From Blastopirellula marina (GTDB taxonomy: Bacteria; Planctomycetota; Planctomycetia; Pirellulales; Thermoguttaceae), in contig DYLS01000030.1 in the NCBI GenBank assembly GCA_020721965.1, positions 1 through 45,820 of the forward strand: 45,820 nucleotides of DNA. Direction: 5' to 3'. This document shows, in pieces, positions 5,111 to 27,015 of the stretch (the first letter of the stretch is position 1; each line of letters opens with the position of its first letter). The notes beneath the pieces are model-generated. The model did no database searches. It saw only the letters and a list, made by a program, of their open reading frames with translations, and was not told where the DNA came from. The position numbers were made by a program, and so were the translations under genes.

Positions 5111-5236
5111 TCTCAGCCCAGAACGATTACCCTTTGACATGAATGCCGCGATTCTCGACCGCAACAACGGTCAGTTGGGGCGAAGCGATATGGAAGCGAG
5201 ATGCATCTGCCCCGACGTGACGGACTGTATTGTGAT

Positions 5237-10317: not shown

Positions 10318-10538
10318 GACCCGTGACTTATCCCAATTCCCTGTTGTGCACACCTCCATCCACAGAGCGGATCGCTGGGATCGGAGGCGACTCAATACCG
10401 TGCCAACTTGCCAGACTCCAGAGGGGATACCTAGTTCCCCTTCTTACCCTAACGTTAGAGTATACGGCGGAGCGGAGAAGTGTGTCAAAATCCCTCCCAA
10501 TGGGCAAATCGGTTCACGCTAAATGTAGGGCTACGGTC

Positions 10539-11201: not shown

Positions 11202-11234
11202 CCCATTGCGGGAGCAGATTCCGCGAGCCTTCCC

Positions 11235-11356
11235 CTTACTTCGACATCGCAAGATTGTTTGCTTGGCTCAAGATCTTGTAGTGATGGGACTTATAGCCTC
11301 GCAAGATATGCTGGCCACATGGTGCAATCAGGCGGACTTTACGTTGGAGGATTAGC
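11235..11356 (-). repeat. MITE-like element family M1, copy A
   Basis: This 122-bp element lies between the convergent ogt and RidA-like genes, 12 bp from the stop of the latter. Its left end CCTTACTTCGACATCGCA is a degraded form of the family terminal repeat (CTTAGTACTACAGCGCA). The interior has TTGTTTGC..CAAGATCTTGTAGTGATGGGAC, and the right end has AATCAGGCGGACTTTACG. It is in the same orientation as copy C and opposite to copies B, D and E. Confidence 0.7.
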
Positions 11357-11368
11357 CGAGCCTGCCGC

Positions 11369-12601
11369 TCAGCAACGGCCGTCCGTGCACCCAGCCGTGC
11401 CGCGTTGGGCGAATGCCACCCCCTCGATCTCGACCAACAAATCGGGACGGCACACATCGGCCACAGCGTAAATGGTGGGGACATTGCCCATGCGCCGCTT
11501 GCAGATAGCCGCCACTTTGGGGTAGTCTGCTTTGTGCTTGATGTAAACCCGAGCCAATGCCAATTGTTCCAGAGAACTGGACATCTCAGGCAGGTGATGC
11601 CTCTTCAAATTGGGGCCGCTGATCAAAGCCGCGATGTTGTCCAACGTCTCGTTCGTTTGCGATTCGAAATCGCCTTCGTGCCGCGTCTCCGAATCCGTGA
11701 TGCTCGCTGTCCCAGAGATGAAGATCGTGGCGTAGGTACCGCAAGAGAGCGCCATCGCGCGGGAAAACTTGGGACTTTTCGGACTGTAATAGCACCCGTA
11801 TCCGAAGGCAGGAGTTTGACGGGGATTTTCTAGCGGCATGGCGACAATGTCGGATCGCTCGCTATCCAGGGCAATGCAACTCATGACCACGTCTCGATGG
11901 TCTGCGCCGATCCCTGTGCTGGCTGGATACGCCGGACCTTCTTGTACCGGTATACGGTCACGGAGGAAGGATATGCCCTCGTAGAAATCCGCCCGAGCGC
12001 GGTTCAACTCCTTGTATCGCTGCGATTCCCCTTCCGGATCCACAATGCCACCCAAATAGAGCCAGGTGCGTATGATCTGATCGAAACCCACATCCACCCG
12101 CCGTAGCAGGCTCTGCATCCTTTGAAACGCATCCTTTGCCCGATCGTAGGTGGCTGTGGCGTCTGTTTGCGGCACTACCTGAGCGCAGTGGATCCATGAG
12201 ATGTTGTTGTGCCGCGCAAGAACCAGTTGATCGCTGAAGCGCAGGATGTCGACTTCGCCCTTTTTGCGTCCCACTCCGAGAGCTTCGATCGAGATCAGAC
12301 CTCCTTCGCAAGGCATTTGGGGGACGTAGGTGGTGGCTGGCATTTCCGGGCCATAAAAATCCCGGATGATCTTGCGCACTTCTTGCAACTGGGAATAGTC
12401 GCCCAAGAAGACGACCTGGTGGACGATCGATCCCAGCGTGCTTTCCTCGCGGATCACTGCTTCGATCGTCTTCAGGGCGTCGTCCGCTTGCGACTCCAAA
12501 CTGTCACCGCACCGAGGAGCGGCCGCAGCGAACACATGGCGGACATCGGTCAGGTCGACGACCGAATAGCCGACGCCATCACTGCAGATTTTCCGAATCA
12601 T
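11369..12601 (-). CDS. RidA-like domain fused to chorismatase-like (YjgF-fold) region
   Basis: A 410-residue cytoplasmic protein apparently built from three YjgF folds. Residues about 20-110 match RidA-type proteins (HQVVFLGDYSQLQEVRKIIR, then DFYGPEMPATTYVP and GGLISIEA). Residues about 125-400 resemble the two-lobed chorismatase/FkbO-XanB2 group, with FDQIIRTWLYLGGI, RYKELNRARADFY, YPASTGIG, LENPRQTPAFGYG, YSPKSPKFSRA and FISGTASI..HEGD. The end (TIYAVADVCRPDLLVEIEGVA) is a typical YjgF closing strand pair. True chorismatases hydrolyse chorismate to hydroxybenzoate or dihydroxy acids. RidA proteins deaminate reactive enamines. Which activity survives here cannot be read from sequence. A MITE-like repeat abuts the stop. 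Confidence 0.75.
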   Translation of the reverse strand: MIRKICSDGVGYSVVDLTDVRHVFAAAAPRCGDSLESQADDALKTIEAVIREESTLGSIVHQVVFLGDYSQLQEVRKIIRDFYGPEMPATTYVPQMPCEGGLISIEALGVGRKKGEVDILRFSDQLVLARHNNISWIHCAQVVPQTDATATYDRAKDAFQRMQSLLRRVDVGFDQIIRTWLYLGGIVDPEGESQRYKELNRARADFYEGISFLRDRIPVQEGPAYPASTGIGADHRDVVMSCIALDSERSDIVAMPLENPRQTPAFGYGCYYSPKSPKFSRAMALSCGTYATIFISGTASITDSETRHEGDFESQTNETLDNIAALISGPNLKRHHLPEMSSSLEQLALARVYIKHKADYPKVAAICKRRMGNVPTIYAVADVCRPDLLVEIEGVAFAQRGTAGCTDGRC

Positions 12602-13007
12602 AGATCCCTCGGAAGCTGTCTGATTCCCCTCGCCCCTTCTCCAGTTTAATTGCTATTCCTCCGGTACGAAAACAATCGGACCGGTACCGTCATTACCGTG
12701 CTTCCAAACTCAAATGCCGGTCTATTACCCTTGACAAAAACTGGTCTATTACCCTTGGCAAAGAGTGGTTGGATGTCGGCTGAACCGCCTCGTCATTGGA
12801 ACTACACCGGCCTTCCCTTGCCGGTTAACGGCGGCTCTCCCCATCTATTTATGTCGTAGCACCTGCGACGCGCACGATTTAGCCACCAGATTTGTCAGGG
12901 ACAAACATTCATCCTCGCGTTCGTTCCAATGGCATGCTATACGGTACGGTTCTTGGATCTTCGATCCGAATTTCCGGGACTTTTTCTTTGATTGATACCA
13001 CGGACTG
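12602..13007. other. Gene-free gap with 24-bp tandem repeat
   Basis: Two minus-strand genes are separated by about 400 bp with no credible coding frame. The only structure seen is a direct repeat of GGTCTATTACCCTTGACAAA-type units at 12719-12742 and 12743-12766. The first unit contains a TTGACA hexamer, but no matching -10 box at the usual spacing is clear. Confidence 0.6.
12719..12766 (+). repeat. 24-bp tandem direct repeat (two units)
   Basis: Two adjacent 24-base units share GGTCTATTACCCTTG and CAAA, differing at a few positions. A related string, GATTACCCTTTGACAT, occurs at about 5125. The unit could be an operator or a polymerase-slippage product; nothing in the sequence decides this. 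Confidence 0.7.
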
Positions 13008-14915
13008 CTAACGTTCTTTCCAGCTATCCAATGGTCGCAACATGGATAGACCCGCTGCATCCCCCGAAGTTACAAACGCGACCGCGATGCGAAGCGGATC
13101 GCTCTGCTTGTTGAGGCGAATCACGAGTTTGCGGACATTCGGCTGCTGCCGTTGCGGTGGTGGGGCGTCAGCCTTTTCGACCGCGAATTGGGCATCGGCC
13201 GGTGATATCAGGACTGCTTGAATCGAGCGGTTTCCCTGACGCAGTACCGCCATCGAACCTTGCAGCTCTATCTCCGCACCCGTGTGAATCTGCCATTGGA
13301 TGGAACGCCCATCAAAACCGTTCAGTTCGTCCTGAACGAGAACGACCCTGTGATCGAGGATGGCGATACCGCGAAGCACACGATCCGCCGGTTGGGATGC
13401 GGATTTCTCCGCAGACTGGGGCGCGTATGCGGCCGATAGGTCCGCGATCGCGAAAAGCTGCTCGGGTCGATCTGAGAAAGCAAGGATCGGTGCCTTGGCC
13501 CGGGGGTTTTGGTTCTGGCTGTCCACAAGCAAGGTGTTTTGCCCGAAAGTTCCCAAGCGGTAGTATGTCCATCGCTGCTTGCCGAAGTAGCCGGGTAGGT
13601 TGTAATCGTCGGACCCCAAATCCAGGACCCAGCGTTCCCCATTTGCGTCTAGTACGAAACTTCCCAATTCCAGATGGCTGTGATTGACGGCGTTGTCACC
13701 ACCCTTGAATCCCACGAAGATGACGTCTTCCGTCCAATCGGTTCGGAGTGTGACGATGTCGGCTCCGCGAAACCATTTGGCAGTCGCTTCATTTCCAAAG
13801 CCGTCGCCTCGCGGATCGTACCACCACAAGTCCAACGCCTCGCGACCTCGCAGGTAATCGCACTGGTGCCAAGCATAGACGGGCCGATCGAATCGCTTGG
13901 CCAGGTACAACATGCAGGGCGCGTGCCCAACCCGCGAGCCGCCATCGGCAAAGTTGAAGCTCATCCTGGTCGGACCGATCACGTGCATCCAAAAATCGCC
14001 GGTGACGGAAAATCCCGGGGATTGACCGATTCCAAAGTCGCTGCCTAAAGCGGTTTCCAGTCCAGCCAGGAGGAAGACCGTGTAATGGGTGGCATAGTTC
14101 CAATAACCAGGCCCCTCTGCCCAGGCTCCGTCGGGAGCGTAGCTGGCCATGGCACGCGGCACAGAGTTGATGGCCGAGGCGATGATGAATGAGGATAGTT
14201 CAGGTTCGTCTTCGGCGACGGCCAGGGCACCCAGGGCCATGCCGCCGTTGCAGACTTGATTCCAATTCCAAGCCGTTGTCGACCACCATCCCCCGCGGCG
14301 ATAGACCTTTTCGCCCTCGCGCAATCCTTTTTCCACAATGGCCGTCCGAATCGCCTGGTGGTCTTCCGCGCTAAGGTAATCGAACAACCAATCGTAGCCG
14401 ATCGCCAAGGCGTGGGTCATTTCGGCAGTATCCAAGAAGTGAGAAGGGTTCCAGTCCGGGAAGGAAGCGGCGGTCCGCATCTCGACCACAGCACGCTCTG
14501 CATACTTGGCATCGCCAGTCAATCGATACAACGTCGCCAAGGTATAGATTCGGCCGAGACATCGCCGACTTTGATCGAGCAAACGCGGACCGATCAGACG
14601 ATGGCGGATCGGCGGTTCGGTAAGAATCTGGTTGCCAGCCTGCTGGACTGCCTGAAAAATATCTCGCGCGGTTGGATCGCGCTGCAGCAATTGCCGCACG
14701 TGCTCTTCCGCCCCCTGGGGTGCGATCAACCGCGGATGGCCAGGGACTAGCGTCCGCAACACCTGATCCGGGGAGGTCGTCACCGATGTTTCTGCTGTTT
14801 CTATGGCGACGGCGATTCCGGCCACGCTAACCGACAAAAGGCCGCTTATGAACAGCTCGACGATGAACTGATGAGCGGGTAAGGGGCTGTGTGAATCGCT
14901 TGACCAAGGCCACAT
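13008..14915 (-). CDS. Secreted heparinase II/III-family polysaccharide lyase-like protein
   Basis: A 635-residue exported protein of the heparinase II/III or alginate-lyase type. The start at 14915 has GGAGGT seven bases upstream; the longer frame to 14984 lacks such a site. An N-terminal hydrophobic segment (FIVELFISGLLSVSVAGIAVA) is a signal peptide or anchor. The alpha/alpha toroid follows with YTLATLYRLTGDAKYAERAV, WNPSHFLDTAEMTHALAIGYDW and WWSTTAWNWNQVCNGGM. The heparinase II/III domain begins near ADIVTLRTDW and includes GGDNAVNHSHLELGSFVLD, with the conserved Asn-His-x-His, then GERWVLDLGSDDYNLPGYFG. Substrates of this family are uronic-acid polysaccharides. It fits with the beta-helix and uronate-family genes nearby. 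The C-terminal beta-sandwich ends at SWKER. Confidence 0.85.
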   Translation of the reverse strand: MWPWSSDSHSPLPAHQFIVELFISGLLSVSVAGIAVAIETAETSVTTSPDQVLRTLVPGHPRLIAPQGAEEHVRQLLQRDPTARDIFQAVQQAGNQILTEPPIRHRLIGPRLLDQSRRCLGRIYTLATLYRLTGDAKYAERAVVEMRTAASFPDWNPSHFLDTAEMTHALAIGYDWLFDYLSAEDHQAIRTAIVEKGLREGEKVYRRGGWWSTTAWNWNQVCNGGMALGALAVAEDEPELSSFIIASAINSVPRAMASYAPDGAWAEGPGYWNYATHYTVFLLAGLETALGSDFGIGQSPGFSVTGDFWMHVIGPTRMSFNFADGGSRVGHAPCMLYLAKRFDRPVYAWHQCDYLRGREALDLWWYDPRGDGFGNEATAKWFRGADIVTLRTDWTEDVIFVGFKGGDNAVNHSHLELGSFVLDANGERWVLDLGSDDYNLPGYFGKQRWTYYRLGTFGQNTLLVDSQNQNPRAKAPILAFSDRPEQLFAIADLSAAYAPQSAEKSASQPADRVLRGIAILDHRVVLVQDELNGFDGRSIQWQIHTGAEIELQGSMAVLRQGNRSIQAVLISPADAQFAVEKADAPPPQRQQPNVRKLVIRLNKQSDPLRIAVAFVTSGDAAGLSMLRPLDSWKER

Positions 14916-14984
14916 GAGGCGACCTCCAGAGGGCAACGAACCGATATTTGCGTGCCGAAATTCGACAATCGAGGGTGGGAACAA

Positions 14985-15248
14985 GCAGGCGTGTGGACAA
15001 TCGGCAGGTACGGTTGGAGTGTAACACCGTTGTCAGGATTGGTCAAGCATTTCGCGCGTGATTTCAAACGGAGCTACAGATTGCCATGATTTGCAACGCG
15101 CCGGCCGCCAACGGCTGGAAATGCATCGTGAAGGAATCGTGATTGCCCCTTGCCGATTCTTCGGCACCAGCGAAGCGAGGTCTTGCAAAATGGATCGACT
15201 GCGTGAGATATCATATCGGTACCTCAGGCTGCCAGGGCCAGCCCTACA
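14985..15248. other. Gap upstream of the heparinase-like gene
   Basis: About 260 bp upstream of the minus-strand heparinase-like gene, probably holding its promoter. I see no convincing -35/-10 pair and no gene. A repeat element begins just to the right. Confidence 0.4.
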
Positions 15249-15399
15249 CCGAAAAGCCCGCCTGACTGCAGGATCTGCTCCGCGTAACAGCGAAAAGTCC
15301 GCACGATTGCGGGATATGCTCCCCGTATCCTATGAGGCGTTACGTCCCATTACCACAAGATGTTACGGCAAGCAAGCAAACCGGCGCTGTACTGCTAAG
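15249..15399 (+). repeat. MITE-like element family M1, copy B with duplicated left end
   Basis: The right part (15286-15399) matches the family: AACAGCGAAAAGTCCGCA at the left, CGTTACGTCCCATTACCACAAGATGTTACGGCAAGC in the middle (split here at 15338 onward), and GGCGCTGTACTGCTAAG at the right. The left 41 bases are present twice in tandem (CGAAAAG at 15250 and again at 15291), so the copy is longer than the others. It lies about 80 bp from the stop of the NagB-like gene. Confidence 0.7.
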
Positions 15400-15477
15400 A
15401 CGTTTCGGCACTTGGGATAGCAGAATTGTGATCTGGCGCAGTCGCGGCCAGCCAGGAATGGCAGACCATTAGGCGGG

Positions 15478-16260
15478 CTACCGATCGGGGGCGTCGGGCC
15501 GCTTCTCCTGCACCCAGAGGTAATAATCCGTCAGCTTGAGTTTGGATGCCGCCTGCCGGTCGAGAAAGACGACGGCATCGCGGTGCAATTGCAAGGCGGA
15601 GGCCGTGACCATGCTGGTGATCGGTCCCTCGACGGCGGCGGCCACTGCCTCCGCCTTGGCTTCGCCATGGGCGATCACGATGATCCGTTTGGCTTCGAGT
15701 ATGGTTCCAACTCCCATCGTGATGGCGAAGGAAGGCAGCGGCTCATCGGGATCGAATTGCTCTGAAAACTCCGCAAGGCGCCTCTTGGATAGCGTCTTGA
15801 TCCGGGTTCGTGAGCCCATCGAACTGCCCGATTCGTTGGCGCCGATCTGACCCTCGGTGCCGATCCCCAAGATTTGCAGGTCGATGCCGCCGCACTCCTT
15901 GATTCGTTGTTCGTACCAGCGACAGTAGGCTTCATAATTGTCGGTTGTACCGAGAGGGAAGTAGGAGTTCTGTGGTGGTATGTTGACGAATTTGAAGAAA
16001 TTCTCGTGCATGAAGTAGCGGTTGCTCTGAGGGTGGTCGCGTCCCAGGCCCACGTATTCGTCCAGGTTGAACGTCGCCACTTGCGAGAAATCGAGCAGTC
16101 CCTCCTTGAACATCTTGACCAATTCTTGATAAAGACCGCGATGCGTGTTGCCGGTGCTTAGGCCCAGCACTGCGTTGGGCTTGGTGTTGAGGACTTTGGC
16201 GACTGCCTTGGCCGCCGCTGTACACATTTCTTCGTAGCTGTCCTTGATGATCACTTCCAT
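15478..16260 (-). CDS. nagB: NagB-family glucosamine-6-phosphate deaminase-like protein with altered catalytic residues
   Basis: A 260-residue cytoplasmic protein of the glucosamine-6-phosphate isomerase/deaminase family. Clear family segments are LGLSTGNTHRGLYQELV (phosphate loop), VATFNLDEYVGLGRDHPQSN with Asp67, and SRTRIKTL (150-157). However, the catalytic loop reads LGIGTEGQIGANESGSS. In E. coli NagB the corresponding residues are Asp141, His143 and Glu148. Here they are Glu136, Gln138 and Glu143, so the ring-opening His and its Asp partner are both changed. The phosphate loop has Asn-Thr-His where Thr-Pro is usual. The enzyme may have a different substrate, such as another amino- or keto-sugar phosphate, or may lack deaminase activity. 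Length and overall order are normal. The gene stands alone. Confidence 0.8.
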   Translation of the reverse strand: MEVIIKDSYEEMCTAAAKAVAKVLNTKPNAVLGLSTGNTHRGLYQELVKMFKEGLLDFSQVATFNLDEYVGLGRDHPQSNRYFMHENFFKFVNIPPQNSYFPLGTTDNYEAYCRWYEQRIKECGGIDLQILGIGTEGQIGANESGSSMGSRTRIKTLSKRRLAEFSEQFDPDEPLPSFAITMGVGTILEAKRIIVIAHGEAKAEAVAAAVEGPITSMVTASALQLHRDAVVFLDRQAASKLKLTDYYLWVQEKRPDAPDR

Positions 16261-16747
16261 GACTCAATTTCCCATTCTGGAGGCCATCAATTACTCACGA
16301 TCCCGAGCGAGCTGCTTGCTTTTGGCTTGATGTCGCATCATGTTTGCGATCGGCTCTGAGTCACCCGCTGCTGGAAAGAAACTGATCCCTTAGCAAGGGC
16401 GTGGCGGCAAATCCACCGTGATAGCAGTTTGCAGGCTTTACCTCCGTGCGTCAAGACGGCGGTTTCCGCCTCTTCAGTTCCCGGGGGCCGGACTTTCGCA
16501 ATCGCTGCCCCGCCTGGAATCGATACCATTCTCGCCTTAACGCTATTCTCGCCCTGCTGGCACCATCGTCCGTCCTATCCCGAGGGGGAGGATCCGGCCC
16601 CAACAGATAATGCGAGGGTGGCCGGGAATTTGACAGTCGTAACCCCTTGTTTTTAATGGTGTACCGACATTTGGCCGCACGATTTCGCGTATCTGTTTGG
16701 TTGAGGATCTGGGTAATCTGCGGAATCTAATTCCCGGACACCCTCAG
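16261..16747. other. Gene-free gap upstream of the NagB-like gene
   Basis: Nearly 490 bp with no frame that resembles a protein. The part adjacent to 16260 should hold the promoter of the minus-strand NagB-like gene. I see no riboswitch-like or tRNA-like structure. A MITE-like repeat follows at 16748. Confidence 0.5.
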
Positions 16748-16866
16748 ATCATGCTACAGCGCGGGGTTGTTTGCTGGCTGCAACATCTTGTAGGGATGGG
16801 GCATCACGGCTCGCAAGATACGCCGAGCACATCACGCCATCAGGCGGATTTTGCGCTGTGGTACGG
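16748..16866 (-). repeat. MITE-like element family M1, copy C
   Basis: One of the two cleanest copies. The left end CATGCTACAGCGC and the right end GCGCTGTGGTACGG are inverted repeats of each other. The interior GTTGTTTGCTGGCTGCAAC can form a short hairpin, and is followed by ATCTTGTAGGGATGGGGC and CATCAGGCGGATTTTG. It ends 5 bp from the stop codon of the minus-strand NfeD-type gene, so it would be transcribed as its 3' tail. Confidence 0.8.
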
Positions 16867-16871
16867 AGCGG

Positions 16872-19157
16872 TCATGTGACGGCCCGAACAAAGACACGCA
16901 TTCCTCGCACGTCCGTGACCACCACGTCCTGACCGCGGTCAATCGGTTCACCATCCTCGGACAGCACGTCGAGCAGGCGTCCCGCAAGGCTCGCCTTGCC
17001 GCTGGGCATGAGAGGAGTGACGGTCGTCCCACGCTGGCCGACAAGCGATTCATCGACCTGTAGCAGCGTGCGGCGTTGCTCCATGGCCTCGGCCTCCTCC
17101 GGGGAAGGGGGAAGTAGCACAATCCGCCCGAGGCCGGGCGTGTGCGGCAACCATCGTCCAATCAGAGAAGCCAGGATGCCTGTTCCCACTGCCGCGGCGG
17201 CGATTATCAACAGCGATTGCTGAAATTGTCCCCATTGGTAGCTGTTGTGCGGCCAAAGGAACGTTTGGCCCGCCAAGACTAAGGAGGCCAGGAGCAAGGC
17301 CCCTCCGCCAAGCCCGAAAATACCAAATCCCGGCAAGACGAACAACTCGACGGCCAGGCACATCAGCCCCACCAGGAAGAGGATGATTTCCAGCCATTCG
17401 GCAGTGTGCCCCAAAAAACGGCTCCAGAAAAAGAGGACGAAGCACACGGTGGCCATGAAAGCGCCCACGCCGATACCGGGAGTCTGCAACTCGATGATAA
17501 GACTCACGAAACCGATGATGACTAGGGCCACCGCGACGCCGGGAGTAGCCAGCCCCTCGACGAGTAGGTCCGACCAGGTCGGCTCCAAGAGGGCGGGATC
17601 GTTTTCCAGTCCGTATAGTTCCTTCATGGCAGCGAAGGAATCGACCGTCTCTCTCGCCAAACCAAATTCCAAGGCTTGCTTTCCTGTCAATTGAAGAGGC
17701 ACGCCTGGGTTAGTGATCGCCTCGCCTCTCTCCCAATCCTGAGGATTCGGCAGGCTCTGGAATTCCTCCAGAGAATAGAATTCCGTGATTCCGGGTGTGG
17801 CCTTTTTCGTGTAGCGAAAGACCTCCAGATTGGGATCGAGCAAGGCGATTGGCAAAGACCAGCCTCTCGCGAGCTTCGGAGCGATGACCTGGCTCCATGT
17901 TCGCTTGATTTGATCCAGGTCCTCTTGGGACGGCAGGCCATCTCCCTCGCCCCCGAGCACGGCGTCGGGGTGCGTGATCAAGTGATCACAAGCGAGGGCG
18001 ATCAGAGCGGCGTCGGAGCGAGCCTGCCGTGGGACGTAAGCCACCGTGCGAATACGGTCGTTCGGCACGTCCTGGGCCAAAAAAGTGGCCAGTCGCAAGG
18101 AGTCGGCTGGTGACCCTCCAGCACTATCGATTTCCAGACAAACGAAATTCACGTCACGGCGCAAAGCATCTTCGATCATTTTTTGGGATCGGAGTACGGT
18201 AGCGGCATTGATCGGCCCCTGGGTCTTCACTTGCACCGCTTGCCACATGCCGCCCGCCAGGACTTCTTCTTCCACGTCGGTTTGTGGGATGGACAGGGCC
18301 TGCAAAACATCGCGAAGATCGGCCGCCGTATAGTCGATCAGGTCCAAGGCCCGGGCTTCCCGCCCGGTCAAGCGGCCCATCTGGCCGGCAGGGATGAGAA
18401 CCTTGGGTTTGTCCACCAGCGGCCGCCCCAGTTTTTCCAGCTCTTCTGGCGTAACGAAGACACGCTCGACATCCGTGTCGACTTGCAAGACGGTTCGAGC
18501 CGGATCCAACATGCCAAGAGCGACTTCGACTGGGATCGCGAGGCGGCGCTGAGCGATTTCCCGGTAGGCGCTGAGCATCGGCGGGGCAATCCTCCGCTCG
18601 CCAACGCCGGCAGAACCGAACTCGGCGTCGGGGGCGAGGATGATTTCGCTACACGCCAATATCACCAGCACGGCGTGTCCCTCAGCACGATAGGGGACAT
18701 ACGCGATCGTTCGAATCCGCGCCAGGTCCTCGCTGGTCAGAAGTTCCGCCAGGTCGTAGCACGCACCGAACTCACTGCGTGAGGCGAATTGCTCCTCACC
18801 ACGATTGGTTTCGAATACCAGAATGATGTTCTTGAGAGGCTCGTTGCGATCGGCCAATAGTTCGCGAAGCCCTCGTTTGAGACGCGTCGCCACGGGGCCC
18901 GTGATGGGCAGCGTAATGCGGATGACCTGCGTTTTGTTGGCACTCCCCTGGGGAGCTGCGTTGGCGCCGTCTCCCTTTCCATCCTCGGCGAAAACAACGC
19001 CCTCAAGCCTGAGGCTCAATGTGATCCACGCCGAGAGTCCACTTCCCGCCGACAGTGGGAAGAGTGCACAGCATAAGCCTAGCGCGGTGAGAAATGCCCA
19101 CCTGCGACCGGAGGATCTGGAACCTTTCCTTCGCGGAAAAGACGTGCGAACTATCAT
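16872..19157 (-). CDS. NfeD/ClpP-class membrane serine protease, two ClpP-like domains
   Basis: A 761-residue membrane protein of the long NfeD group. The N-terminus has a signal/anchor (WAFLTALGLCCALFPLSAG). Two ClpP/SppA-like domains follow, at about 75-290 and 310-520. The first begins VIRITLPITGPVATRLKRGL; its expected Ser position reads GHAVLVILACSEI, so it may be inactive. The second reads FVCLEIDSAGGSPADSLRLA and then RQARSDAALIALACDHLI, in which a Ser is retained. Several membrane segments lie at about 530-680 (GVAVALVIIGFVSLIIELQ, LFVLPGFGIFGLGGGALL). A C-terminal NfeD OB-fold follows (LVGQRGTTVTPLMPSGKA..VDVRGMRVFVRAV type). NfeD proteins usually pair with a stomatin/SPFH protein; none is adjacent here. 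Confidence 0.85.
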   Translation of the reverse strand: MIVRTSFPRRKGSRSSGRRWAFLTALGLCCALFPLSAGSGLSAWITLSLRLEGVVFAEDGKGDGANAAPQGSANKTQVIRITLPITGPVATRLKRGLRELLADRNEPLKNIILVFETNRGEEQFASRSEFGACYDLAELLTSEDLARIRTIAYVPYRAEGHAVLVILACSEIILAPDAEFGSAGVGERRIAPPMLSAYREIAQRRLAIPVEVALGMLDPARTVLQVDTDVERVFVTPEELEKLGRPLVDKPKVLIPAGQMGRLTGREARALDLIDYTAADLRDVLQALSIPQTDVEEEVLAGGMWQAVQVKTQGPINAATVLRSQKMIEDALRRDVNFVCLEIDSAGGSPADSLRLATFLAQDVPNDRIRTVAYVPRQARSDAALIALACDHLITHPDAVLGGEGDGLPSQEDLDQIKRTWSQVIAPKLARGWSLPIALLDPNLEVFRYTKKATPGITEFYSLEEFQSLPNPQDWERGEAITNPGVPLQLTGKQALEFGLARETVDSFAAMKELYGLENDPALLEPTWSDLLVEGLATPGVAVALVIIGFVSLIIELQTPGIGVGAFMATVCFVLFFWSRFLGHTAEWLEIILFLVGLMCLAVELFVLPGFGIFGLGGGALLLASLVLAGQTFLWPHNSYQWGQFQQSLLIIAAAAVGTGILASLIGRWLPHTPGLGRIVLLPPSPEEAEAMEQRRTLLQVDESLVGQRGTTVTPLMPSGKASLAGRLLDVLSEDGEPIDRGQDVVVTDVRGMRVFVRAVT

Positions 19158-19259
19158 CGAATCGCTTCCGATTTTCCCCTGTCCTTAGACCTCTGAATAC
19201 GTGAACGCAGGCATTCTCTATTCGTGGTAGTTGCCAGGCTTCGTAAAACTTGCCAGACC

Positions 19260-19305
19260 ATGCCCTGCCAGGATGTCAGGCTATGCCTTGCCAGGATGTT
19301 CTGAT
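19260..19305 (+). repeat. 23-bp tandem direct repeat upstream of the NfeD-type gene
   Basis: Two adjacent 23-base units share ATGCC.TGCCAGGATGT. They lie about 100 bp upstream of the start of the minus-strand protease gene, in the otherwise empty 440-bp gap to the acetyltransferase. They may be a regulator site or simple slippage. No other structure is evident in the gap (19158-19598). Confidence 0.65.
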
Positions 19306-19598
19306 CCGATGCATGATCGACTCCCTCGCCCCGAACCCGGCAAATCGCTCGATTCTCCGCCTGTCCGCAAGAGTAGGGCATGGAGCAACGCGGGATGGAC
19401 GGTCCTTCAGCCAATCCACGTGAATTATACTGCCGCGGCATTGAGGGCGACACGCAAGCCCGGAGACAACTCATCGTGCAGCACCAGGAATCAGCAGGGA
19501 TCCCCAGCCGTTATTCGCAGGATCGCTTCCATTCTTGAACGTTTTGAATGGCGGATTCGAGTTGCATCGGCTTTCGTCACAGAGGGGAAATTGGGGGA

Positions 19599-20165
19599 TC
19601 AGCGTCCGGCCGGAACGTCCGCCACTTTGTAAACTGTGCGGACAATGGCGAAACCGAGATGCTGGTAGAGGTGAATTGCCCCTTCGTTTTCGGCAGTTAC
19701 TTCCAGAAACGCACGCAGGGCACCGGCCTGGCGAAAGCCTTTCAGGGCAAGCAGCAGGAGCGCCGAGCCAACGCCTCGGCCGCGATGGCCGGGGGTCACG
19801 CCGACGTTTTGAATCGCTCCTAGTCGAGTCTCTTCGTCGAGAATACCCTGAATTGTCCCGCAATATTCGAGCTTGTCGCCTTCCGAATCGGGCTGGTAGC
19901 CCGCTAGCCAGGTCGCTCCCGGCAAAAAGCCCGGTTTTCGCCGGATGGCCAACATCAATCGGCGACACCCGTCCTCGTGGGTGAAGCATGAAAAAACGTT
20001 GGCGTCGATCTCTTGGCGAAAGCTTTGATATTTGACCCGGACATGCTGCTCTAACAGCGCATCGCTCCAGGGCAAGAAGAGGTACCGCGGCGGGAAAACT
20101 GGTTCCGGCAATTCTTCCGCCAGCTCAATTTCCATCCGGTAGCGTTTGAAATAGGTCCAGGCCAT
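19599..20165 (-). CDS. GNAT-family N-acetyltransferase
   Basis: A 188-residue cytoplasmic acetyl-CoA-dependent acetyltransferase of unknown substrate. Motif A is clear as NVGVTPGHRGRGVGSALLLLAL (about 127-148), with the Arg/Gly-rich pyrophosphate loop. It is followed by FLEVTAENEGAIHLYQHLGF, the usual strand and helix before the C-terminal end. The N-terminal half (RYLFLPWSDALLEQHVRVKYQSF) resembles GNATs with a substrate lid. An alternative start at 20135 would remove ten residues. It is a single gene, divergent from the DsbD-type gene with 400 bp between. Confidence 0.85.
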   Translation of the reverse strand: MAWTYFKRYRMEIELAEELPEPVFPPRYLFLPWSDALLEQHVRVKYQSFRQEIDANVFSCFTHEDGCRRLMLAIRRKPGFLPGATWLAGYQPDSEGDKLEYCGTIQGILDEETRLGAIQNVGVTPGHRGRGVGSALLLLALKGFRQAGALRAFLEVTAENEGAIHLYQHLGFAIVRTVYKVADVPAGR

Positions 20166-20565
20166 GGCGATGCCCCGGGGGCGCCGGCGATGCTCCTTGC
20201 CTTGGCTGTGCAGGGAATGCGAAGAGCGACTATGAGTAATCTATTCGCTCGATTTCGGTGGGTCAACGCCAGGCTCATTCCCCTCCATCCGGCATTGGGA
20301 GCGGAATCTCAGGGTAACAGTTGTAACCATCAAGCATGAAGGTGCGTCTCTCCCAAAAATACCGTTTTTGATGGGAACCGGGCTTATTGATGACAGACTG
20401 GCTGCTTTTTCTGGGGGCACATGCCCAAATGGGTGGGTTTGTTGGCCAGAATCACAAGCAATTCGTATCATAGATGAGCACTGCGGTTGTCGATGAACGC
20501 GTGACCGTGGTCGCGGAACGCCTGTCTCACCCTTGCTGAAGGATTTCGTGGATCGAGGAGTGACA
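20166..20565. other. Divergent intergenic region
   Basis: About 400 bp between the divergent acetyltransferase and DsbD-type genes, so it should hold both promoters. I see no clear -35/-10 pair and no repeat. The only decisive site is GAGGAG at 20555-20560, the ribosome site of the downstream gene. Confidence 0.4.
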
Positions 20566-22764
20566 ATGAAGGATCGTCGTCGTTCGGCTACGAGCATCGG
20601 TTATTTGTCGGTGGCATGGCTGGCCGCTATCTGGATCGGGGGCTTGTTGGCGCCGTCCGCGGCAAAGGCCCAATTCGGCCTGAGTGGTGGATCGGGCGGC
20701 ATGTTCGGGACGCCTAAGGTACGGGTGAAAGCGTCATTCACCCCGGCGACACCCGATCGCCCGGCGTTGCTTTTCGTTCAAGCGGAGATCGAGCCGGGCT
20801 GGCATATCTACTCGGTAACCCAGTCCGGCGATGGACCACGCCCTACTTTGATCCGTGTGGCGTCCGATCAGGGAGTTCGATTGCTGGGGGCGTTTGTTCC
20901 CGACCGCAAGCCCGAGGTGAAGACAGAAGAGGCTTTTCCCGGAGTTGAGGTAGAAACCCACGAAGGCACGGTGTGGTGGGTGGCGGCGATCGAATTGTCC
21001 TCCTCCTTGGACCCAGCGAATTTGACCATACAAGGCGTCCTGAACGCGCAACCCTGCGACGCCTCGAGCTGTCTGCCACCGCAAGATCATCCCTTTTCCG
21101 CAACGCGCACTGATGTTTCGCCCCTTCCAGAGGGGGTTTTAGTAACCCTGCTTCCGTCCCTCTTGCAGGGGGGGGCAATGGCGAATGCGCAGCCGACCGC
21201 CACAGATTCCGCGCCCTCGCACGAGCCAAAGAGTGAGGAGCTGGACCCTAGCGATGGATCCCAAAGCGGTGTCTTCTCCCCCATTCCCAAAGACTGGGAT
21301 GGAAGTGATTTGCCCTGGCAACCGTTCACGATGCGCCGTTTCCTCGCTTTGGTGGGAGAACAATTCGATCCCGATGCGATGCAAGCCAACGTCGGGATGA
21401 CGAAGTGGAGTTGGCAAGAGTTCATCGCGAAAATGCTCGCTGGATTTCTGGGCGGCATCATCCTGAATGTCATGCCGTGCGTCTTGCCCGTGATCGGCCT
21501 GAAACTCCTCTCGTTTATTCAGACGGCAGGTGAAAGTCGCCGCCGGGCCTTTGCCTTGAATGCGTGGTATTCTGCCGGCCTGCTCTCCGTCTTTTTGTTG
21601 CTAGCGATACTCGCCATCGTGCTTAAGCTCGGGTGGGGATACCTCTTCAAATTCGCGGGATTCAACGTCGTGATGTCAGCCGTCATTTTTGCGATGGCGC
21701 TGGCCTTCCTCGGTGTTTGGACGATTCCGATCCCCGGCATTGTGGGATCCGGCAAGGCCCTTGAATTGGCTCAAAAGGAAGGGGCCATCGGCGCGTTCCT
21801 GAAAGGCGTTTTGACGACGATTCTAGCGACGCCGTGCACAGGGCCATTCATGGGAGCAGCTTTGGCCTGGGCCTTTTCCCAGCCGCCCGGCGTAGTGCTT
21901 GCGGTGTTCCTGAGCGTTGGCTTGGGGATGGCCAGCCCCTATCTCGTGATCGGCGCTTTTCCCGAATTGATGCGTTTCTTCCCCAAGCCTGGGCCGTGGA
22001 TGGAAACGTTCGAACGGCTGATGGGCTTCGTCCTCCTCGGAACGGTCGTTTACATTTTCACTTACCTCGATTGGCCGTATATCGCCCCCACTTTGGGTCT
22101 CCTTTTCTCGATTTGGGCTGCGCTCTGGTGGGTGGAACGGACGGGGTTCTCTGCCAGCCTTCCGCAAAAGGCCAGGGCATGGCTAGGTGCTTTGGCTTTC
22201 GTGGGGGTAATGTGGCTGCTCCTGTTTCCCGGGCTGCGAATCAACGGGCGACAGTGGGGAAGCCTGCTGACGGTCATGGAGCACCGTTTCACAAGGCGGG
22301 CGACCACCGTGGTTGATCTCAAATTGTTCCAAGAGGGCAAGCAAATCGTAGCAGCTACTCGGACGGACAAACCTATTGTGCCTCCAGGGCAGTACACCAT
22401 TTTGGTGGACTGCACGGCGGATTGGTGCGTCAATTGCAAAACCCTTGAAGCTACCGTGCTGAATACAGAGCCTGTGCGGCGAATTCTGCGAGAAAACAAG
22501 GTCGTCCTGCTTCAAGCGGATTGGACCCACGAGTCACCACCAGAAGTTACGCGCTTCCTCAACTGGCTGGGTTTTCAGCAAGTCCCGGTTGTGGTGATTT
22601 TCCCGGCCGGCCGGCCGAATGAACCTCAAGTGTTTGCGGGAATGTTTACTCAGCAGGAGATTGTCCAGGCAGTCAAGGCCGCCGGGCCGTCTGCCGTGGC
22701 GGATTCAGACGGGGCACCGCGTGCCAGTGTCGCAAAGTCTGCACCGAACCATCGATCGTTGTAG
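20566..22764 (+). CDS. dsbD: DsbD-type thiol:disulfide interchange protein
   Basis: A 732-residue membrane protein that carries electrons from cytoplasmic thioredoxin to extracytoplasmic proteins. The start at 20566 follows GAGGAG by five bases; an upstream TTG frame start at 20533 is ignored. The signal segment is VAWLAAIWIGGLLAPSAAKA. A periplasmic DsbD alpha-like domain (about 40-190; EIEPGWHIYSVTQSGDG, LNAQPCDASSCLPP) is followed by a linker. The eight-helix core starts near 289, with MPCVLPV (Cys302) and LATPCTGPFMG (Cys421 region). The C-terminal thioredoxin domain carries ADWCVNCKTLE (CxxC at about 621-624). All three redox modules are present, so it is a full-length DsbD/ScsB-type protein. 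The N-terminal domain has its own Cys pair (CDASSC). Confidence 0.93.
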   Translation: MKDRRRSATSIGYLSVAWLAAIWIGGLLAPSAAKAQFGLSGGSGGMFGTPKVRVKASFTPATPDRPALLFVQAEIEPGWHIYSVTQSGDGPRPTLIRVASDQGVRLLGAFVPDRKPEVKTEEAFPGVEVETHEGTVWWVAAIELSSSLDPANLTIQGVLNAQPCDASSCLPPQDHPFSATRTDVSPLPEGVLVTLLPSLLQGGAMANAQPTATDSAPSHEPKSEELDPSDGSQSGVFSPIPKDWDGSDLPWQPFTMRRFLALVGEQFDPDAMQANVGMTKWSWQEFIAKMLAGFLGGIILNVMPCVLPVIGLKLLSFIQTAGESRRRAFALNAWYSAGLLSVFLLLAILAIVLKLGWGYLFKFAGFNVVMSAVIFAMALAFLGVWTIPIPGIVGSGKALELAQKEGAIGAFLKGVLTTILATPCTGPFMGAALAWAFSQPPGVVLAVFLSVGLGMASPYLVIGAFPELMRFFPKPGPWMETFERLMGFVLLGTVVYIFTYLDWPYIAPTLGLLFSIWAALWWVERTGFSASLPQKARAWLGALAFVGVMWLLLFPGLRINGRQWGSLLTVMEHRFTRRATTVVDLKLFQEGKQIVAATRTDKPIVPPGQYTILVDCTADWCVNCKTLEATVLNTEPVRRILRENKVVLLQADWTHESPPEVTRFLNWLGFQQVPVVVIFPAGRPNEPQVFAGMFTQQEIVQAVKAAGPSAVADSDGAPRASVAKSAPNHRSL

Positions 22765-22848
22765 ATTTGCTCCGCATTACCGATCGTTGGAGAACTGCGA
22801 CGTCTTTTATCGTAAGAAAATGCTCCCCCGCAGAATGCCTGGTTTGAG

Positions 22849-23709
22849 CTAGGAGCTAGAGCGATCGGGACTGTTTGGGGAAAGACGAGGATTTTCTGAA
22901 GCAACTACCCCGTCAGAAGTAGTATAATCAACTGCACCGGATTGTGGGGATTCGCGTCCAGGTGGTGGATCGGCGGGAAGAAAAGGCAACTTGTCGCTCA
23001 GAGATTCGCCGAGATCCCGTGCGTCGGGTAGGCCAATGCCTGGTTGGCTGGCCTGCAATAGTTCGACGTATTTTCGGCGGTATTCCCATGCGATCCAGCC
23101 CAGGTATAGGGCGGCGGCGAGCGAGGCTGTCATGCCGGAGAGGGCCAGGGTATTGCTCACGGAGACGGGGTTTGCCGCTTCGGCATTCGAGGATGTATTG
23201 TTCGTCTGAACCGTGGTCTCGTCAGTGCTAGGCGACACACTCGTGGCCGCAGCTCCGACTCCCTTGTTGGGGGGCGGAGCATCACCGGTAGTCGATTCCC
23301 GCGAACGTGATCCGTCTTCTACTCGCCCCACGGCACGGTCGCTTGCGACAGGCTCCGTGAACACGAGAGGAATGGTAGCATGGGAGGCGTCAGAGTTTGG
23401 CGGTGAATGGATACGATCCGGTACCGGGCTGGACCCGTCAGGATGGCCAGGCGTGCGGCTGGCGGCGTCTGGGGCGGGCGATGCTCGTCGCTCAACAGGC
23501 CCCAATCCCACCTCGATCCGGTAACTCTTGATCGGTGGCAGGTCGGCCGGGACGTCGCTCGCCGCAATCACGTCTCCTAATTTGAGGTCCGCAAGCTCTT
23601 CGGGCGAAACACGGATGATGTACTCCGTTCCGCCATCAGGCATGGGACGCCAGCCCACTTGAATAGCCAAACATGCGACAGTGAAAACGATTGGCGTCAG
23701 CGGCGACAT
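22849..23709 (-). CDS. Exported single-pass membrane protein of unknown function
   Basis: A 286-residue protein I do not recognise by family. It has an N-terminal signal peptide (MSPLTPIVFTVACLAIQVGW). A small folded domain follows (about 20-75; GGTEYIIRVSPEELADLKLGDVIAASDVP, split in my reading at ADLKLG), ending in IKSYRIEVGLG. A long low-complexity Pro/Ser/Thr/Asp linker comes next. A membrane helix lies at about residues 190-212 (GMTASLAAALYLGWIAWEY), with a basic cytoplasmic edge RRKYVELL and an acidic/proline-rich tail. The layout suggests a surface or periplasmic N-terminal domain tethered to the membrane. It is convergent with the DsbD-type gene, and a MITE-like repeat lies 16 bp from its start codon. 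Confidence 0.65.
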   Translation of the reverse strand: MSPLTPIVFTVACLAIQVGWRPMPDGGTEYIIRVSPEELADLKLGDVIAASDVPADLPPIKSYRIEVGLGPVERRASPAPDAASRTPGHPDGSSPVPDRIHSPPNSDASHATIPLVFTEPVASDRAVGRVEDGSRSRESTTGDAPPPNKGVGAAATSVSPSTDETTVQTNNTSSNAEAANPVSVSNTLALSGMTASLAAALYLGWIAWEYRRKYVELLQASQPGIGLPDARDLGESLSDKLPFLPADPPPGRESPQSGAVDYTTSDGVVASENPRLSPNSPDRSSS

Positions 23710-23725
23710 GCTACCGTCCTCGCCG

Positions 23726-23846
23726 TTTTAGTACTACGGCACAAAGTCCGCGTGCCTGGATGATGCGCCCACCATGCGTTGCAAAGCGTCATTTCCCATT
23801 ACCACAAGATGTTGAATCAAGTAATCAACCCAGCGGTGTAGCCTCA
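23726..23846 (+). repeat. MITE-like element family M1, copy D
   Basis: Left end TTTTAGTACTACGGCACAAAG, right end CAGCGGTGTAGCCTCAG. The interior CATTACCACAAGATGTTGAATCAAGTAATCAAC is shared almost base for base with copy E (read from 23797), including the GTTGA..TCAAC hairpin. Unlike the others it lies upstream of a gene, 16 bp from the start codon at 23709, and would overlap that gene's promoter. Confidence 0.8.
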
Positions 23847-24400
23847 GATGGTTGGAGGCTCAATTTGCACACGGCAGGGCATTTGTGCCTCATACTTGTG
23901 GGAAAGTGATCCAGGTATCTCTGCTTCATTGTTACGGGCATTTCACGAAGCCGCAATGATTTCGGGCGAGCCACCGTCGATGCCGAGCAGGAGGATGACC
24001 TATTGTTAATCTGGGAATATTGATTAGCATAGATAATTGAAAAGGCGCCCTGTTGCAAGGCATACCAACGACGAGGCCGATGCGGGGGCACCGAGTCCGG
24101 GGTGGTCGATGCCTAAGGGCCGAGCGCCCTCCAGCAATGCAATTTCCCGTGTGTGCCGTGACTGTTGAGAGTCAAGGGGGCCCTTCGCTTTTTCGCGATT
24201 CTGACCTTGTTGGCGGACCTCAGGTTGAAAGCGACCGCCAAAGTCGTCATACTTTTCCAGTCTGCGTTCCTGTGCGAGAGCGGCATTCAGAGAATAAGCG
24301 TAGCATAATTGCACCGCCGAGCTGTTGGGCGTTGAGGACGGCTTCCAGTCTTCGGCTCAAGTGGTGCGACTGAGGTTTGCATCCGTGGGGAATTTCGCCA
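23847..24400. other. Gene-free gap, locally AT-rich
   Basis: About 550 bp before the 60-residue membrane protein gene. A locally AT-rich patch (about 24000-24040) contains TTGTTA and GATAAT-like strings that could be promoter elements, but the spacing is not ideal. I see no coding frame, RNA gene or repeat. Confidence 0.4.
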
Positions 24401-24583
24401 ATGCCTAAGGCCCTATGCATTTTCGGTATGGTCGCAGCGGGACTTATTGCTCTTCTCTTTGGCCTTGACTTGGCAATCGGTCTGCCTTTTGGCAAGGCGA
24501 ATCTGGTCATGGACGTCGGCTCCCTCGTTGCGGCAGCCTTGCTTGGCTATGCCAGCTTCAGCACTTACCGGGAGATTCCATAG
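24401..24583 (+). CDS. Small (60-residue) conserved membrane protein
   Basis: A tiny inner-membrane protein with two predicted helices: ALCIFGMVAAGLIALLFGLDLA and VMDVGSLVAAALLGYASFSTY. The loop between them reads IGLPFGKANL, and the C-terminus is charged (REIP). I recognise this arrangement (short IFGM helix, Gly-Leu-Asp-Leu-Ala, PFGKA loop) as a recurrent small protein in planctomycetes, but no function is known to me. The ATG at 24401 gives the compact form; an in-frame start at 24377 adds eight unlikely residues. It stands alone between gene-free stretches. Confidence 0.75.
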   Translation: MPKALCIFGMVAAGLIALLFGLDLAIGLPFGKANLVMDVGSLVAAALLGYASFSTYREIP

Positions 24584-24713
24584 CCCAGCGGCCTGCCCGC
24601 CCCGATGGCGCACTTTTGAGTTTTCCCGATCGTGCGTCGACCACTTTGGCGCCGGACTCACTGATCGCTGTCTTCGATCCCTATCTTCCCCCACCGCTCT
24701 TCCTCCTCCGCGG

Positions 24714-24835
24714 CCTAACGCCACAGCGCAAAGTCCGCCTGATTGCTTAATGCCACCCGCCTATCATGCAACGCGTTACGTCCTAGTACCACAAGATGTT
24801 GAACCAAGCAATCAACCCTGCGCTGTAGTACTAAG
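24714..24835 (+). repeat. MITE-like element family M1, copy E
   Basis: The best-preserved copy. Left end CCTAACGCCACAGCGCAAAG, right end TGCGCTGTAGTACTAAG. The inner hairpin GTTGAACCAAGCAATCAAC is intact. The right terminal repeat overlaps the 3' end of the minus-strand cobA-hemD gene: the stop codon TAG (24831-24833 on the minus strand) is part of the CTTAG terminus. Confidence 0.85.
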
Positions 24836-26471
24836 AGGCATTTGTATTGGTTCGCCGCTCGTACTCGCAAATGGCATTCACAATTCCCGCCATCGTGTAC
24901 ACTTGCGCCTCTACTGCCGGTTCGAAGCCCAATTCGCGGAGAACGCTGCTGGTGATCGGGCTGATCGAGGCCAGCTTGACTTGTCGGAGGTCCTCGCCAA
25001 ACAGCTTCACCAATGCCCTGGCGATAGACGAGCTGGTAACGGTCATCCAGTCCACGGAACCTTCGCGAATTCGAGCAACGATTTCCGGATGGGGTGCCTC
25101 GATATCGCGATTGATATACGCCACCACTTGCTGCACGTCCGCTCCCGCGCGGGATAGGGTTTCCGCCAGGGTGGGTCGTCCTCTACTTGCCCGAATCAGA
25201 AGGTAGCGATTCCCTTCCCCACGCGAGAGGATCGTATCAGCCAAGGATTCCGCCCGGTACTCTGGCGGGACAAGATCTGGGCGGATGCGGAAACGGCGCA
25301 GCTCCTCGGCAGTGCCTGGGCCGATTGCCGCAATCTTAGCCCGCCCCAAGGCCCGAGCATCTTGCCCGAGTTGCTCCATTCGTTCCAGAAAAAAACGCAC
25401 CCCATTGGCGCTGGAAAACACGAGCCAATCAAACGCGTCCCGTTTAGCAATGGCCGCGTCCACATCCCTCCAATCGGGGGGAGGCGTGATCTCCACGGCG
25501 GGCTGGGTTAGGACCTCCGCACCTAGATTCCATAGCATGTCCCGAATTTTGTCGGCCTGATGTTCCGGTCGCGTCACCACGCAGCAGCGGCCGAAAAGAG
25601 GACGATCGACGAACCAGGACTGTCGCGGGGCATGTCTGGCCGCCTCGCCCACCACGATCACGGCCGGCGGCTTGATGCCTTGGCTCTCGATCACGGTTGC
25701 AATCTCGCCAAGAGTCGAGAAAACCGTTTGCTGGCGTGGCCAACCGCATCGGCGAACCAGGACGACGGGAGTGTCAGCCAGCTTTCCGTGACGCATCAAT
25801 TCGGTTGCCCAAACCGCCGCGGAGCGTACCCCCATGTAAATGACCAACGTTCCCGGGAAACTTGCCAGGGATTGATAGTTCAACGGTTCGCCATGCGAAC
25901 CGTGTGATTGCTGGCCGGTCACCAGCGCTACGGCGGAGGCGAACTTGGCATGGGTCAGCGGTATCTCGCCGAGAGCGCCAACGGCAAGCCCCGCGGTAAT
26001 GCCGGGAATGATGACGACTCGGGCACCGGCTTTTCTGAGGACCTCAGCCTCGTCCGCCTGTCGGCCGAACACGACGGGATCGCCGCTTTTCAATCGCACC
26101 ACGGTCCTGCCCTGAGCCACGGCCTCCAGGACGTAGCGGTTGATCGTCTCTTGGGGCCAATGATGGCCCACGCTGTGGTGTCCGACGGATACCCGCTCGG
26201 CCCCCGGGGGGACGAGTTCGAGCACGCGAGGGTCGACCAGGTAATCGTAAAGGACGACGTCCGCTTTTTTCAAAGCCTCCGCCGCCCAAAGGGTCAGCAA
26301 TCTGGGGTCTCCGGGGCCAGCGCCCACCAAAAAAACGCAGCCGGGGGCAGGGCCCGACGGCAATGGAATCTTTTCGTTTTCCGGAGCACCTTTTGACGCC
26401 GTCTTTTGCCGGCTCGGGTCGGGGGAATCAAGGTCGGGTTGACCGTCGGGACGTTGGCTGAAATCACTCAT
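24831..26471 (-). CDS. cobA-hemD: Uroporphyrinogen-III C-methyltransferase/uroporphyrinogen-III synthase fusion
   Basis: A 546-residue bifunctional tetrapyrrole enzyme. Residues about 45-285 are the SAM-dependent methyltransferase that makes precorrin-2 (CVFLVGAGPGDPRLLTLWA, VVRLKSGDPVVFGRQADE, VIIPGITAGLAVG, PLTHAKFASAVALVTG). Residues about 290-540 are HemD, which cyclises hydroxymethylbilane (CCVVTRPEHQADKIRDML, FDWLVFSSANGVRFFLERM, KIAAIGPGTAEELR, DWMTVTSSSIARALVKLF). The fusion makes uroporphyrinogen III and methylates it, feeding siroheme or cobalamin. The first roughly 40 residues are disordered (Gln/Asp/Pro/Ser-rich). The stop codon lies within the terminal repeat of MITE copy E, so the native C-terminus may once have been different. 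The neighbours are unrelated. Confidence 0.93.
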   Translation of the reverse strand: MSDFSQRPDGQPDLDSPDPSRQKTASKGAPENEKIPLPSGPAPGCVFLVGAGPGDPRLLTLWAAEALKKADVVLYDYLVDPRVLELVPPGAERVSVGHHSVGHHWPQETINRYVLEAVAQGRTVVRLKSGDPVVFGRQADEAEVLRKAGARVVIIPGITAGLAVGALGEIPLTHAKFASAVALVTGQQSHGSHGEPLNYQSLASFPGTLVIYMGVRSAAVWATELMRHGKLADTPVVLVRRCGWPRQQTVFSTLGEIATVIESQGIKPPAVIVVGEAARHAPRQSWFVDRPLFGRCCVVTRPEHQADKIRDMLWNLGAEVLTQPAVEITPPPDWRDVDAAIAKRDAFDWLVFSSANGVRFFLERMEQLGQDARALGRAKIAAIGPGTAEELRRFRIRPDLVPPEYRAESLADTILSRGEGNRYLLIRASRGRPTLAETLSRAGADVQQVVAYINRDIEAPHPEIVARIREGSVDWMTVTSSSIARALVKLFGEDLRQVKLASISPITSSVLRELGFEPAVEAQVYTMAGIVNAICEYERRTNTNAS

Positions 26472-26579
26472 GCGAATGGCACTTCTTATCCAAGGTGTTT
26501 GGGGATAGGTAGTCTTTCACGGGGGGGGCCGTTACTGCAAACCGGCTCGCCCTCTTGCCACTTCGAGCGAACGATCGAA

Positions 26580-26805: not shown

Positions 26806-27015
26806 GCTCCGCCGTGAACGGTTACGAGGATACCAACGCGATCGCGTTCGAGACCGCCGTTCGCCCCATCGCGATTCAAACGTAAGACAACGCGAAACGC
26901 TGTTGAGTTGACATTCTGGCCAGTTACAATGATGATAGAGCGGAAAAAGGTCCTCTCGGGAAATCGGATAGCGTCTCGGGCTACGCTCGGGGCCAAACAA
27001 CTCATCGAGGCCGGT

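Follow-up and report, generated by a model that had tools for sequence, protein, structure and literature searches.

The 45,820-nt stretch analysed here, which we call the window, is one whole contig (DYLS01000030.1) of the 4.95-Mb draft genome of Blastopirellula marina (GCA_020721965.1, 380 contigs), and it carries five copies of a repeat of about 120 bp, M1. M1 is a new, large and inactive family of miniature inverted-repeat transposable elements (MITEs) of IS701 type. The element proper is 112 bp long, ends in the terminal inverted repeats (TIRs) TACTACAGCGC(A) and (T)GCGCTGTAGTA, and duplicates a 4-bp target word, YTAR. We put at about 0.9 the probability that M1 was spread in trans by a transposase of the IS701 family and that its position at gene ends is an effect of the target word. 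This placement is real and mainly a target-site effect; the idea of a terminator, put forward in an initial annotation of the window, is not needed and is unsupported here.

Anatomy, copy number and age of M1

Five copies had been proposed as a family, a proposal that a genome-wide search without further copies would have refuted. Such a search with a covariance model gave at least 150 copies, spread over many contigs (weakest scored, E 1e-14), and the proposal stands; a single M1 copy used as query already has at least 40 matches in the genome. The model was built from 12 sequences, the five of the window and seven others of the same genome, which align without gaps over 119 columns. An iterated profile search of 0.998 Mb (112 stretches around copies plus the window) returned 218 matches, some of them pieces of one copy, and 192 of them are full length. 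The extrapolated total is about 475 copies (150 plus 66 per Mb), a figure that may be too high and that rests on 40 of 113 sources, taken from copy-bearing contigs.

The TIR TACTACAGCGC(A) stands at both ends with a per-position consensus of 0.7-0.9 (189 copies). Outside each of them, alignment of the flanks reveals a feature that had gone unnoticed, four bases that read YTAR and are repeated on the two sides. The 4-bp repeat lies at exactly the edges of M1 (z 14.7, 189 copies). Identical 4-mers flank 34 of the 192 full copies, against 5.9±2.3 in shuffles and a maximum of 17 in 2000 shuffles. Half of these 34 have 4-mers other than YTAR, and the word is therefore a true target duplication and not a part of the element. 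Where YTAR stands on both sides, its variable positions Y and R also match between the sides (p 0.0013 and 0.0027). M1 has the features of a MITE: it is short, noncoding, bounded by TIRs, flanked by a target duplication (of 4 bp, as is typical of IS701) and present in many dispersed copies. Its interior holds no called gene, save for predicted overlaps of more than 6 bp in 17 of the 192 copies. Twelve pairs of neighbouring copies lie within 12 bp of each other, several of them being single copies that were split.

Among the 114 copies that align without gaps, the median divergence from the consensus is 19% and the mean pairwise divergence 30%, the nearest pair being 91% identical. Because of this median divergence the family looks long inactive. 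Conservation is even along the element (ends 0.83 and 0.81, interior 0.82; predicted stem 0.80, loop 0.79), which, together with the divergence and the decayed target words, makes its history look like a burst followed by drift. Among 59 relatives, only two have a match to the M1 model at E up to 1e-5, one match each, and the amplification is therefore specific to the host lineage; the nearest of these to the host genome are three of the same genus (G001-G003), and the host is probably a Thermogutta-like species (family Thermoguttaceae, order Pirellulales).

Placement at stop codons

YTAR includes the stop codons TAA and TAG, and duplication of YTAR restores the stop. All placement counts are based on a home-made gene caller (661 genes). 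With respect to the 598 genes that have a complete 3´ end, 27 of the 192 full copies lie exactly on the stop codon (offset 0, at which the stop is formed by the TAR of the target word), whereas every other offset between -60 and +120 holds four at most. The excess at gene 3´ ends seen in the window is thereby confirmed, and it is concentrated on the stop codon itself; 26 of the 27 genes score strongly in the gene calls. Occupancy follows the stop type: 19 of 100 YTAR stops, 6 of 172 RTAR (other TAA/TAG) stops and 2 of 326 TGA stops carry a copy, the last two classes being counted as they stand (TAA/TAG versus TGA, p 2e-7). At 1-30 bp downstream of the stop this dependence vanishes (8 of 272 TAA/TAG genes, 13 of 326 TGA genes, p 0.5). 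Stop type thus governs occupancy at the stop but not in the 30 bp that follow, which speaks against a function at the 3´ end as the cause of retention. On this reading it is the presence of TAA and TAG in the target word that brings copies to gene ends, and insertions there survive because the duplication restores the stop and leaves the protein unchanged.

Copy E of the window (24715-24834, minus strand) illustrates this with an intact duplication, TTAG / TTAG. The stop-side TTAG (24831-24834, minus strand) provides the stop codon TAG (24831-24833) of a fused tetrapyrrole methylase / HemD gene (24831-26471, minus strand), while the far-side TTAG (minus strand) is at 24715-24718. The protein ends inside the usual range of its orthologues. 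Read by eye, the 200 bases past the ends of six orthologues are free of the repeat, so that this one site has an empty counterpart in all six, and the M1 model has no match near the orthologue ends in G001-G003.

Use of sites at stop codons is about double that of intergenic YTAR sites (27/107 against 148/1168; 14.7 expected, p 0.0016), in a test that is rough because the stretches had been picked for the copies they hold and because some of the 27 stops do not now read YTAR. The difference may reflect a real preference, selection against other intergenic sites, or genes missed by the gene calls. On the first of these, stop codons would be a preferred safe harbour, with IS701-type transposition favouring terminating or exposed DNA at gene ends; we regard this as a tentative idea, with perhaps one chance in four of being right. 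If true, a 4-bp word made of Y and a stop codon would have become an evolved way to colonise gene-dense genomes harmlessly.

The 3´ excess is not all at the stop, and this counts against a pure target-word effect. The other intergenic copies are nearer to 3´ ends than YTAR sites are (median 126 versus 200 bp, p 0.005), with no such difference in the distance to 5´ ends (155 versus 156, p 0.86). Divergent-gene gaps hold 26 of 125 copies as compared with 261 of 861 YTAR sites. Both the nearness to 3´ ends and the scarcity in divergent gaps are expected if insertions near promoters have been weeded out. These intergenic tests left out 17 copies that overlap called genes, 24 that lack a called gene on both sides and, likewise, 159 of 1020 null sites.

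The same asymmetry could be read as the mark of a mobile element co-opted at 3´ ends, as the initial annotation did. M1 copies would then be retained at gene ends for a hairpin that terminates transcripts or makes them more stable. Of the 125 copies, 61 have a 3´ end as their nearest gene boundary, against 312 of the 861 YTAR sites, convergent gaps hold 25 of the copies against 115 of the sites, and the M1 consensus folds as a long hairpin (-55.9 kcal/mol, 43 pairs). A hairpin of this kind is, however, expected because M1 is an imperfect palindrome, and what would set a conserved RNA structure apart, compensatory changes above chance, was not seen in the 114 ungapped copies (78 of 192 full copies were dropped as gapped, 26 of 218 matches as partial). 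Pair-keeping double changes number 95 in the 43-pair hairpin (103.7±8.1 in shuffles) and 41 in a 31-pair structure derived with RNAalifold from 12 copies (35.4±5.2). For the small GTTG/CAAC hairpin, whose arms had been said to stay complementary through paired changes, they number 8 against 6.4±2.2. In the RNAalifold structure the paired cells are slightly more numerous than in shuffles (2843 versus 2819±9, 2.6 standard deviations), which ignore the relatedness of the copies. The copies fold little better than column-shuffled ones (-41.5 versus -40.5, standard error 0.6).

Copies between tandem genes show no orientation bias, running along the transcript in 37 cases and against it in 37; for those at stop codons the numbers are 9 and 17, respectively. 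Terminator-like sites in 10300-26500 of the window amount to 24, with 17.5±4.4 expected; two of them fall within M1, one in the full copy B and the other in its neighbouring fragment. A G+C-rich hairpin followed by a T run, the hallmark of an intrinsic terminator, is thus present in only one of the five full copies. With an excess concentrated on a single position and tied to YTAR stops, with genes ending in TGA hardly ever hit at the stop yet as often followed by a copy within 30 bp, and with neither paired changes nor an orientation bias, we consider co-option of the family as a terminator or 3´ end structure very improbable. The mobile, MITE-like nature of M1 and its 3´ excess stand. Individual copies may have a function.

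The probable IS701-type partner

As had been noted, M1 contains no transposase, and its mobility calls for one in trans. IS701-family insertion sequences share the terminal 11 bp with M1 in two other genera of the same family of planctomycetes. The first (locus L268 in genome G017) measures 1542 bp between and including its target words, has M1-type ends and encodes an IS701 transposase (NF033540, E 3e-96, 323 bits with a cut-off of 150; PF13546, E 4e-69), the C-terminal end of which seems to be in another frame. The second (L267 in G007), of 1465 bp, has the TIR variant TATGACAGCGC and encodes another IS701 transposase (NF033540, E 1e-79). These are full-length elements with the ends of M1, such as the initial annotation proposed to look for, found in G007 and G017 and not in the host genome. 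Closer to the host, the congener Thermogutta terrifontis has a 388-bp stretch with M1-type ends that still contains part of the transposase (68% over 31 residues, E 1.4e-6). A third remnant of a transposase start in T. terrifontis (L208, G002:1529247) consists of early codons followed by a different repeat (GGAGGGACCTGCTCGTCAGGTCCG type), which occurs also in L201.

The combined end and target word, YTARTAYBACAGCGC, has matches in 29 of the family's 119 genomes, representing 21 of 40 genera. The listed counts sum to 145, as compared with 19 for the reversed pattern; single matches are therefore near chance and clusters are not. Contigs of G013, G068, G117, G006, G007 and G026 stop about 85-140 bases inside M1-type ends. 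Contig breaks inside an element are typical of multi-copy elements, and draft assemblies often lose multi-copy insertion sequences. In G036 both contigs end inside the element and the body of the insertion sequence was not found; when its 87-base end served as query against the family, only end matches or an unrelated leader-like motif resulted. Such a motif (TAAATcGGCGAgTTTGGCGAA type) separates the end from the start codon in the insertion sequences of G036, G002, G017 and G068 (loci L207:1501-1587, L200, L213, L215, L216 and L277). A TAAATcGGCGAgTTTGGCGAA-like stretch also immediately precedes an asparagine-synthetase-like frame in G092 (L213), and G126 and G087 have weaker matches. A scan of genome contigs with a 22-base end pattern hit one place in a Prevotellaceae genome, which we rejected as a chance coding match.

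Several observations weigh against an IS701 partner. A search of the host genome for PF13546, the IS701 transposase, gave no match, so that the partner has to be deduced from other genera. Absence of the gene from the host is likely but unproven, because multi-copy elements frequently go missing from draft assemblies. In about 1 Mb of the host genome, the TIRs outside known copies comprise 11 single ends, some of which belong to a second MITE family, M2 (see below), and no pair within 4 kb. The interior of M1 matches L268 and L267 nowhere beyond the ends, and simple internal deletion of one of them therefore does not account for M1. The words flanking these insertion sequences differ by one base (L268 CTAA / CTAG, L267 TTAA / CTAA), and those of the T. 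terrifontis remnant by two (CTAA / TTAG). The published IS701 end consensus, ---YACT-Y--YR, fits the M1 ends only if read three bases further out, and, by the accessible portion of the same paper, this consensus does not represent the whole family (PMC2266710). Finally, the target word of IS5 is also YTAR, according to the available text of PMC10359306.

This last point raises the question whether the partner was an IS5-group transposase instead. Transposases with PF01609 are present in four of five genomes searched, at three places in the host genome itself. Yet none of 12 PF01609 loci has an M1-type TIR pair, even with one mismatch allowed; one has a MITE beside it and one a single TIR match. 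IS701 genes, by contrast, do lie between M1-type ends in G007 and G017, and an IS5-group origin seems to us barely credible. That M1 might be a structured RNA family or a family of repetitive extragenic palindromic (REP) sequences, as its many, mostly intergenic copies and imperfect palindrome could suggest, is extremely unlikely, given that no Rfam match is found in the window at gathering scores, that target duplications and TIRs fit transposition by a DDE enzyme, and that M1 is about 112 bp long against 20-40 bp for REPs in the available part of PMC3733652.

The spread of M1 by an IS701-type enzyme can then be pictured as follows. An IS701-family transposase that recognised the same terminal repeats would have mobilised M1 in trans, and each insertion at YTAR would have duplicated 4 bp. 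Wherever the YTAR was a stop, the insertion would duplicate the stop as well, leave the protein unchanged and survive. Insertions inside genes and, more weakly, those in promoter regions would be removed by selection. We infer that the transposase was later lost from the host genome and that the copies have drifted since. A target word containing a stop, together with a stop-restoring duplication, would give a mechanistic reason why some bacterial MITEs seem attached to gene ends; MITEs in such positions may wrongly be taken for co-opted terminators. M1 also provides the IS701 transposon family with a large group of linked MITEs, relatives of which occur in several genera of a single family of planctomycetes.

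Window copies, related MITEs and known systems

All five window copies were found where the initial annotation had placed them, with small corrections of the boundaries; each spans 120 bp including a 4-bp target site per side. They are the top five of 26 window matches to the covariance model (95.7 to 116.8 bits, E at most 6.4e-29). Ranks 6 and 7 (E 4e-4 and 0.16) arise from copies E and C read on the opposite strand; E is at least 2.6 for the remaining 19 matches. Copy A (11236-11355, plus strand; target sites TTAC / TTAG) lies 13 bases from the stop of a RidA-type gene (11369-12601, minus strand) and 34 from that of a methylguanine-methyltransferase gene (10323-11201, plus strand). Copy B (15279-15398, minus strand; TTAG / CGGA, the second site decayed) is 79 bases from the stop of the gene at 15478-16260 (minus strand). 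It is adjoined by the fragment of a second copy (15244-15286, minus strand; model positions 71-113, E 1.1e-4), which accounts for the length of 151 bp formerly assigned to it. Copy C (16748-16867, plus strand; decayed sites ATCA / CGGA) is 4 bases from the stop of a gene of NfeD type (16872-19157, minus strand). The gene-end positions claimed for these three and for copy E, on its stop, thus hold. Copy D (23728-23847, minus strand; CTGA / CTAA) is different: it precedes a minus-strand gene (22849-23709), with 18 bases between it and the gene start, and is therefore not at a 3´ end.

Two further features of the window are recorded here in their own right. A different dispersed repeat, which consists of TGTCATTTCGAGCGAAGCGAGAAATCTT and the blocks that follow it and is about 250-300 bp long, has two copies, at 4836-5130 and 26580-26825, with 72-89% identity. 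Nested inverted repeats at 1358-1383/1786-1811 (26 nt, 96%) and 1499-1536/1581-1618 (38 nt, 84% complementary) could be the boundaries of another small mobile element.

MITEs with the same ends and different interiors are found in other genera. In the host genome a second family, M2, of about 100 bp, has the same ends and YTAR flanks and is apparently younger than M1. It has eight matches in the stretches (L121:6173-6281, L128:7042-7150, L120:1942-2050, L187:3826-3934, L191:464-572, L062:6150-6256, L144:592-698 and L136:3896-4002), and in L121, L062 and L136 it directly adjoins M1, as though its insertion had used the target word of that copy. A core, CAACATCTTGTG, situated 31-44 bases from one end in M1, recurs with at most two mismatches in 17 of 63 TIR-bearing ends of other genomes, against 2% of random windows, in a sample biased by G001, G002 and G028, for which detection relied in part on the M1 model; in sets found by ends alone it is present in 3/3 (G069) and 2/2 (G014). 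Besides the M1 consensus, examples from several genera include L248, L272, L255, L040 and L042. The core is absent from insertion-sequence ends and may represent common descent or a mobility signal. In the congener G003, a MITE with the same ends (L175, G003:C780) lies 3 bases from a match to the DDE_Tnp_1 transposase.

In the open-licence literature we found no MITE described for the IS701 family, no paper on Thermoguttaceae and insertion sequences, and nothing on MITEs overlapping stop codons or on insertions that restore them. The closest known systems, compared here from the available portions of the cited papers, share different parts of the behaviour of M1. IS701 elements are 1400-1550 bp long and duplicate exactly 4 bp (PMC2266710), with nTAG as target in Deinococcus (PMC10017437); M1 likewise has a 4-bp duplication with a word nTAR, and the transposases of L268 and L267 lie between the same ends. 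Unlike those elements, M1 is 112 bp long and geneless, and its interior is unrelated to L268 and L267. IS5 has the same word YTAR (PMC10359306) but its transposase is of another group, and none of the IS5-type genes found lies between M1 ends. RUP of pneumococcus with IS630-Spn1 (PMC2229807), MITEAba12 with ISAba12 (PMC6382973) and MITEPye1 with IS1182 (PMC11578231) resemble M1 in being small and mostly intergenic, with TIRs shared with an insertion sequence, target duplications and a hairpin. They depend on other families and other target words (TA; 9 bp), and their insertion sequences are resident, whereas M1 numbers several hundred copies, strongly diverged, in a genome from which its partner is missing. 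The placement of M1 is best compared with that of QMITE2 of Coxiella burnetii (PMC5896051), which is also found mainly in 3´ untranslated regions and intergenic DNA. QMITE2, however, is 150-190 bp long and makes variable duplications of 7-11 bp, the accessible text describing no target word that contains a stop codon. An in-frame insertion of QMITE2 makes a gene longer; M1, by landing on a stop codon, restores that stop.

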